Assembly: GCA_029287915.1 (NCBI GenBank)
Contig: JARFQE010000023.1
Coordinates: forward strand, 16,537-80,536
Reading direction: 5' to 3'
DNA from: Arenicellales bacterium
GTDB lineage: Bacteria; Pseudomonadota; Gammaproteobacteria; BMS3Bbin11
DNA: 64,000 bases
Shown one piece after another: positions 51,183-52,042 of this stretch. The notes beneath the pieces were generated by a model. The model was not told where the DNA came from, ran no database searches, and worked only from the letters and a program-made list of their open reading frames with translations. Within the stretch, counting starts at the first letter, position 1. Each line of letters begins with the position of its first letter. A program made the translations under genes and the position numbers.

Positions 51183-51260
51183 AATTCTCTCCGTTTTCTC
51201 TATTATACATACAATCGTTTATAAGATTTTGCTTATTATAACAAGAAATATAAATATTTC

Positions 51261-51749
51261 TCAGCTCGCTTCTCTTAAATCAGCATAATCACCCGGAATT
51301 CCGGAATGCCACAAACGCGCTGGCACGTCGCTGATAGAATCACCATCATGCGCCCGCTCGATGCATTCCTTGAGTGTTATGTTATTCAGAAACTGATAGA
51401 TGCTGCGACTCAGAGAACTCCACATAATCTGACTCAGATAGCGAACATTATCTCCATAATATGGGATCACAGTTTCACGCATCGTATAAGTGCGATCATC
51501 TACTGAAGTAACGATATCAGCCATAGAGATTTTCTCAGCAGGTTTCGCCAGTCGGTAACCACCGCCCGGCCCGCGTACTCCTTCAATGAGGTCACTTTCT
51601 CTTAAATTTGCGAACAACTGCTCCACATAAGATACAGAAATATCCTGGTCTGAAGCGATTTGAGCCGCCGTCATTGCTCGCCCTTTACCATGAATGGCAA
51701 GGAACATCATACCTGAAATTGCAATCTGACCTTTCGATGATAATCTCAT
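51261..51749 (-). CDS. iscR: IscR-like Rrf2-family regulator lacking the canonical Fe-S ligands
   Basis: MRLSSKGQIAISGMMFLAIHGKG, DISVSYVEQLFANLRESDLIEGVRGPGGGYRLAKPAEKISMADIVTSVDD; start trimmed to MRLSSK. Confidence 0.88.
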   Translation of the reverse strand: MRLSSKGQIAISGMMFLAIHGKGRAMTAAQIASDQDISVSYVEQLFANLRESDLIEGVRGPGGGYRLAKPAEKISMADIVTSVDDRTYTMRETVIPYYGDNVRYLSQIMWSSLSRSIYQFLNNITLKECIERAHDGDSISDVPARLWHSGIPGDYADLREAS

Positions 51750-51778: not shown

Positions 51779-51803
51779 ATTCCTGACTATTTCGGTAGGT
51801 TAT
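51779..51803. promoter_or_regulatory. Type-1-like IscR box upstream of iscR
   Basis: ATTCCTGACTATTTCGGTAGGTTAT, 21/25 by eye to the recalled consensus ATASYYGACTRWWWYAGTCRRSTAT. Confidence 0.65.
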
Positions 51804-52042
51804 TTTATTAGATCCTGCTATTGCTGTCAATTAGACCTTATATGTACGGTATTCATTTGACACCGAAAATCTGTCAAATGGAGGAGATATTGCTTAATTA
51901 TTCATGTGAAACCTGCAGGTAAGTTCAAGGCGAATGTTGAGATTGCACAAGATTGATGATACTGACAATTCGCTGAGGACTAGTGAATAACCCTACGAGA
52001 TCTAGCTTGAAAAAATAACAAACTGACTATAGTTTCTGCATC

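Follow-up and report, generated by a model that had tools for sequence, protein, structure and literature searches.

A ligand-less IscR paralogue located before the only iscU gene of a marine Arenicellales bacterium

IscR is the textbook regulator that gauges iron-sulfur status by carrying a cluster itself. Two routes around its usual set of ligands are already known within the Rrf2 family: cluster-free proteins, exemplified by CymR, and the cysteine-poor IscR of Rhodobacter. CymR is a cofactor-free regulator controlled by its partner CysK (cited in PMC9338935). The IscR of R. sphaeroides lacks the three ligand cysteines and binds its cluster through one C-terminal cysteine, Cys142 (PMC4618611). 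The reading of DNA in the cluster-free state has been studied with variants of the protein: IscR(C92A), which is cluster-free, binds type-2 sites (PMC12594620), and Glu43 of Escherichia coli IscR binds C7C8 in type-2 DNA (PMC5411485). Type-1 sites have TT on one side, which explains why apo-IscR does not bind them but E43A does (PMC5411485). A search of the open-licence literature revealed no paper on a ligand-less IscR paralogue that stands beside a canonical IscR and holds the sole iscU.

The DNA analyzed here (the window, 64,000 nucleotides) derives from a marine bacterium and encodes an IscR-lineage regulator, designated IscR2 (Table 1). Its open frame of 162 codons, containing DDRTYTMRETVIPYYGDNVRYLSQIMW, begins on the minus strand with ATG at 51749, preceded by an AGGAG ribosome site, and ends with the stop codon at 51261–51263. 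The protein aligns with E. coli IscR (structure 4hf1) without gaps up to residue 138, and the ligand positions C92, C98, C104, and H107 are occupied by E, Y, Y, and Q, so that the IscR ligand set is lacking, as the first-pass annotation had read from the sequence. The helix-turn-helix (HTH) and wing, which it had described as preserved, are indeed intact: the base-reading residues S38, S40, E43, Q44, R59, and G60 are all kept, including the S40/E43/Q44 set and the R59-G60-P61 wing. The only cysteine of IscR2, C129, is invariant across the genus. The Pfam Rrf2 score of 103 bits exceeds the threshold of 30, and the Rrf2 winged-helix fold is accompanied by an IscR-type dimerisation helix. The score with the NCBIfam IscR family (TIGR02010) is 115.4 bits, below the equivalog cut-off of 207.55, and that with the NCBIfam CymR family is 70.9 bits vs. 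a cut-off of 195.

Table 1. Features of the iscR2-iscU locus, with positions in the window, and other genomes in which a ligand-less IscR is paired with iscU
Feature	Position	Strand	Evidence or remark
-35 element TTGACA	51825..51830	-	invariant in seven genomes
-10 element TAAAAT	51802..51807	-	TANAAT in all seven genomes; 17 nt from the -35 element
IscR-like 25-bp box ATAACCTACCGAAATAGTCAGGAAT	51779..51803	-	over the -10/start of the iscR2 promoter
iscR2 (IscR-lineage Rrf2 regulator, 162 aa)	51261..51749	-	Pfam Rrf2, NCBIfam IscR, alignment, fold
Replaced ligand loop (residues ~84-110)	51420..51500	-	conservation, pN/pS, model
Extended -10 element TGTTATAAT	51235..51243	-	TGYTATAAT in all seven genomes; may serve iscU alone as a second promoter
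Palindrome ATAAG-N6-CTTAT at the iscU promoter	51221..51236	-	conserved in genus
iscU, only copy in the genome	50784..51182	-	NCBIfam TIGR01999, 223 bits, above cut-off
Ligand-less IscR with iscU			f1 (the window's genus); f37 (G043); f53 (G059, G301); f153 (G159, G269, G364)
Ligand-less IscR with iscU, further families			f80 (G210, G086); f101 (G107, G322); f128 (G247)

Six other genomes of the same genus, all of them separately assembled MAGs, encode IscR2 at 78–86% identity. E92, Y98, and Q107 are invariant in all seven, and Y104 is found in six, being replaced by N in one. The first-pass annotation had named a frameshift or an assembly error as refuting its reading; both are ruled out by the agreement of the seven independently assembled genomes. 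In the replaced loop, 19 of 27 residues are invariant, and its pN/pS within the genus (residues 84–110) is 0.093, with 0.060 for the HTH and wing and 0.455 for the tail. In the canonical IscR, pN/pS of the corresponding loop is 0.053. Judged from these sequences, strong purifying selection acts on the replaced loop, which is a maintained replacement rather than an error or decay.

The structure of IscR2 was modeled from ten sequences, with a pLDDT of only 69. The model has the IscR fold, and its best Foldseek matches are apo-IscR structures, the closest being 4hf0 (39% identity, TM 0.91 by target length). At its pLDDT of 69, the model reveals no ordered structure in place of the cluster site, because residues 88–99 are modeled with low confidence and the dimerisation helix starts at residue 100. 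The corresponding loop of apo-IscR was described as disordered (PMC5411485).

The genome contains a second Rrf2 gene (142 bits), the product of which includes DATRCGGEKNCSKDDRCLTHYLW and retains all four cluster ligands; this is the cysteine-containing IscR that the first-pass annotation had proposed to look for. It belongs to a locus of the order cysG-cysE-iscR-iscS-iscA-hscB-hscA-fdx-iscX, in which exactly iscU is missing. The iscU gene is located instead 78 nt behind iscR2, and this pairing is identical in all seven genomes of the genus. Its search gave the sole match in the genome and the sole full-length match in each genome of the genus. The scaffold cysteines of IscU are present in the motifs GAPACGD, YGCGSA, and KIHCS. 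A search for SufB gave no match in the seven genomes, of which four are more than 90% complete, and IscU is therefore probably the only de novo scaffold of the genus. In one genome of a sister genus (G007, same family, 81% complete), no IscR or IscU match was found and a SufB fragment is present, which suggests that the Fe-S assembly system was switched within the family.

All seven genomes carry a sigma70-type layout, TTGACA-N17-TANAAT followed by the 25-bp box, upstream of iscR2. Within the box 14 of 25 columns are invariant, compared with 13 of the 176 columns that precede the -35 element. The box was scored against the E. coli type-1 IscR pattern. It matches at 21 of 25 positions, a score reached by none of 60 first-order shuffles; across the seven genomes the matches range from 19 to 22 of 25, the weakest of these scores being reached by 3 of 60 shuffles. 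The pattern has two matches in the window, one of them the iscR2 box, with 0.66 expected by chance. In front of the canonical iscR, the promoters of the genus have a type-1 box matching at 23–25 of 25 positions, with the sequence ATACTTGACTAAATTAGTCAGGTAT in this genome. The two boxes differ mainly in the left half, which in the iscR2 box reads ATAACC in all seven genomes, where the canonical box has ATACTT. The right half reads CT rather than CC, so the box is not a clean type-2 site, and no convincing classical type-2 site was detected before iscR2, the best candidates not standing out from those in front of other genes. The retention of Glu43 together with the CC in the box would fit a protein able to recognize its site in the cluster-free state. 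The TT of the canonical promoter overlaps the presumed -35 element TTGACT, which may explain why TT is fixed there.

Another promoter-like element is located between iscR2 and iscU. Its ATAAG-N6-CTTAT palindrome is kept in the seven genomes, with one mismatch in two of them. Judging by this element and the extended -10 sequence, iscU probably has its own promoter as well; since the element is conserved, iscU may be partly independent of iscR2. The palindrome was also considered as a regulon-wide operator, and this was rejected: the genome contains the exact motif a single time, and a backward control gives equally many near matches.

A class-wide profile search covered 369 genomes of Gammaproteobacteria, and about 130 IscR-like genes were read. 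No protein close to IscR2 was found outside the genus among the 369 genomes (next best 136 bits vs. 335–341), and a tblastn search of plasmids revealed just distant IscR-like proteins of less than 60% identity. Ligand-less IscR paralogues as such are common in the class: the tree set comprises 54, all with E43, Q44, and R59. Most of them have no isc neighbor within the stretches read, and no uniform neighbor was revealed among those without iscU. A ligand-less IscR gene lies directly before iscU, with no iscS in between, in at least 15 of the 156 sampled iscU-bearing genomes, representing seven families (Table 1); this count is a lower bound, as part of the loci was read. In five of the seven families (f1, f53, f80, f101, and f153) the paired iscU is the only one. 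Both f53 genomes have the order cysE-iscR-iscS-iscA-hscB-hscA-fdx, again with exactly iscU missing. Intermediate arrangements comprise a ligand-less iscR-iscS-iscU (G291), an iscR with one ligand cysteine before iscU (G259), and an iscR with all four ligands immediately before iscU (G360). A plausible path leads through duplication of iscR-iscS-iscU, reciprocal loss, and the loss of ligands in one copy.

Several other observations were made in the course of this survey. The f37 genomes contain two more ligand-less IscR lineages (L080, L082, L084 and L081, L083, L085) besides the iscU-linked one, and no isc genes were found beside these two. The promoters of ligand-less IscR genes without isc neighbors (for example L154, L097, L136, L127) often carry type-1-like boxes, and these genes may be members of the canonical IscR regulon. 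A second IscS-like gene is located between the canonical iscR and iscS in two f53 genomes (L205, 6766–7899; L206, 13290–14441), and the same is observed in L245, L254, and L258 of other families. In other uncultured bacteria with the order cysE-iscR-iscS (L056–L059), IscR-like proteins have three cysteines with a different spacing, and the ligand histidine is replaced by F.

In a tree rooted with SUF regulators as the outgroup, IscR2 lies inside the group of ligand-bearing IscR proteins, with moderate inner supports, and its ligands were therefore lost. The phylogeny for which the first-pass annotation had called thus disfavors an origin in another Rrf2 subfamily that never had these ligands. 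The ligand-less proteins mostly form one cluster of 46 (SH-aLRT 89, not starred), with several separate later losses. In a tree without the ligand columns and without the outgroup, 39 ligand-less proteins lie on one side of a branch with a support of 84; with these columns removed, a single clade of all ligand-less proteins is weakly rejected (p 0.021). L091 branches closest to the window clade (support 96) and has C129 in common with it. The pairing with iscU corresponds to about seven changes on the tree. One origin of the iscU-linked ligand-less IscR proteins covered by the test is weakly rejected (p-AU 0.029, with groups chosen after inspection), and for the unions f1+f53 and f1+f153 there is no rejection (0.27 and 0.37). 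The columns are few and the branches long, which leaves the count of origins uncertain. An origin of IscR2 by recent duplication of the canonical IscR of the genus is disfavored by the trees, on which the two are widely separated. The IscU tree has too few informative sites to separate relocation from transfer of the module.

The stretch covered by the first-pass annotation holds part of the significance of this locus; the rest lies in the neighboring iscU and in the second, canonical IscR. The annotation had missed that this gene is linked to the only iscU, that the isc operon lacks iscU, and that the arrangement recurs in other families. Taken together, the most probable reading, with chances of about even, is that IscR2 regulates itself independently of a cluster and that the supply of IscU is thereby freed from the feedback exerted by [2Fe-2S]-IscR. 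The iscR2 gene would head a two-gene unit, co-transcribed with the only iscU of the cell, and IscR2 would bind the IscR-type box over its own -10/start without a cluster, like apo-IscR or IscR(C92A). Such autoregulation would hold the expression of IscR2 and IscU at a level set by the concentration of IscR2. The remaining isc genes would stay under the canonical [2Fe-2S]-IscR through its perfect type-1 box, and the supply of the scaffold would be uncoupled from the cluster-sensing feedback on iscS, iscA, hscBA, and fdx. Holo-IscR probably competes for the iscR2 box, which would result in partial cross-control. The likening of IscR2 to apo-locked mutants by the first-pass annotation is reasonable with regard to the intact DNA-reading residues; the absence of a cluster is what we infer. 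Several observations count against this reading: a type-1 consensus that would also accommodate holo-IscR at this box, the CT of its right half and the lack of an outstanding type-2 match, the promoter-like element of iscU itself, the one invariant cysteine, and the frequent lack of isc neighbors beside ligand-less paralogues elsewhere.

The loss of the sensing ligands could also indicate a decaying, functionless paralogue. This is extremely improbable: the frame is uninterrupted and conserved in all seven genomes, pN/pS is 0.06 in the HTH and wing and 0.09 in the loop, and the promoter and box are conserved as well. IscR2 might still bind a cluster via unusual ligands, for example C129 of each subunit across the dimer, and act as an Fe-S or iron sensor. 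The R. sphaeroides protein with its Cys142 provides a precedent (PMC4618611), and C129 is not only invariant in the genus but also common to L091, L120, L121, and L170, while cysteine is not among the common residues at this position in 64 ligand-bearing IscR proteins. However, C129 follows the conserved TL by 3 residues, vs. 11 in the Paracoccus homologue, and many ligand-less IscR proteins, including the iscU-linked L047 (f37) and L209 (f153), are cysteine-free in residues 1–150. A cysteine therefore cannot be general to the arrangement, and cluster binding by IscR2 appears rather unlikely.

It is also conceivable that the box and promoter are a target of the canonical holo-IscR only, and that IscR2 regulates other genes and is merely located beside iscU. 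CC is compatible with the type-1 consensus, which has Y at both positions, and thus holo-IscR alone could be the ligand of the iscR2 box. The match to the type-1 pattern at 19–22 of 25 positions in seven genomes agrees with this, as do the type-1-like boxes with a TT half at many iscU-unlinked ligand-less IscR genes, which suggest holo-IscR control. Nevertheless, the iscR2 box has CC where the holo-IscR box of the genome has TT, and a mere bystander would hardly account for a pairing that is found in seven families and needs several changes on the tree; exclusive control by holo-IscR is thus fairly unlikely. A different mode of sensing would be contact of IscR2 with IscU or an IscU complex, DNA binding following the state of IscU in the manner of CymR and CysK. 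The specific, repeated pairing with iscU without iscS in between, the conservation of the replacement loop in the genus, and the existence of a cofactor-free Rrf2 regulator under the control of a partner protein all point in this direction. Against it, the loop differs between families, and gene pairing is weak evidence for contact, which makes this mode quite doubtful. Equally speculative is its extension to several gammaproteobacterial families, in which a recurrent two-gene module of ligand-less IscR and iscU would have taken the essential scaffold from the isc operon, the regulator directly reading free or loaded IscU instead of a bound cluster. If true, the demand for Fe-S clusters would be sensed at the scaffold.

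Since the pairing is found in several families, it looks like recurrent control of Fe-S cluster assembly without the usual cluster sensor. The central assembly scaffold is placed behind a ligand-less IscR in genomes seemingly without a SUF backup. If confirmed, this would be a natural split of the cluster-sensing and DNA-reading functions of IscR into two proteins, and the automatic annotation of isc-adjacent Rrf2 proteins as Fe-S sensors would be questioned.

Among the known systems, RisR of Myxococcus xanthus is likewise an Rrf2 protein that controls isc genes through a wiring different from that of IscR; however, it appears to bind a cluster via three cysteines and does not conserve the base-reading residues of IscR (PMC9973013). 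CymR of Bacillus and Staphylococcus is, like IscR2, an Rrf2 regulator without an Fe-S cluster ligand set, but acts together with CysK in the control of cysteine metabolism. Among PDB entries, 7zpn, the IscR of Dinoroseobacter shibae, gives the best sequence match to the IscR2 profile. The Rhodobacteraceae proteins resemble IscR2 in the absence of the three ligand cysteines and in having one C-terminal cysteine, which in them belongs to a CP motif, whereas C129 of IscR2 lies in LKECIER, 8 residues before the Paracoccus CP position. In addition, the Rhodobacteraceae IscR heads an isc-suf operon (PMC4618611), while no SufB was found in the window's genus. IscR2 has the fold, HTH, wing, and base-reading residues of E. 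coli IscR in common, as well as the place before an isc gene and an IscR-type box in its own promoter. It differs from this Rrf2 regulator, which carries [2Fe-2S] on a Cys3His set, in the replacement of all four ligands, in having only iscU downstream, and in the presence of a canonical IscR in the same genome. Laboratory variants of the IscR(C92A) type lack the cluster ligand set and keep Glu43, as IscR2 does, and cluster-free reading of the site would be expected from both. Unlike these variants, IscR2 is natural and fixed in the genus, its loop is replaced and conserved, and it coexists with a full IscR, which makes it a natural, retained counterpart of the cluster-less laboratory mutants alongside an intact IscR.
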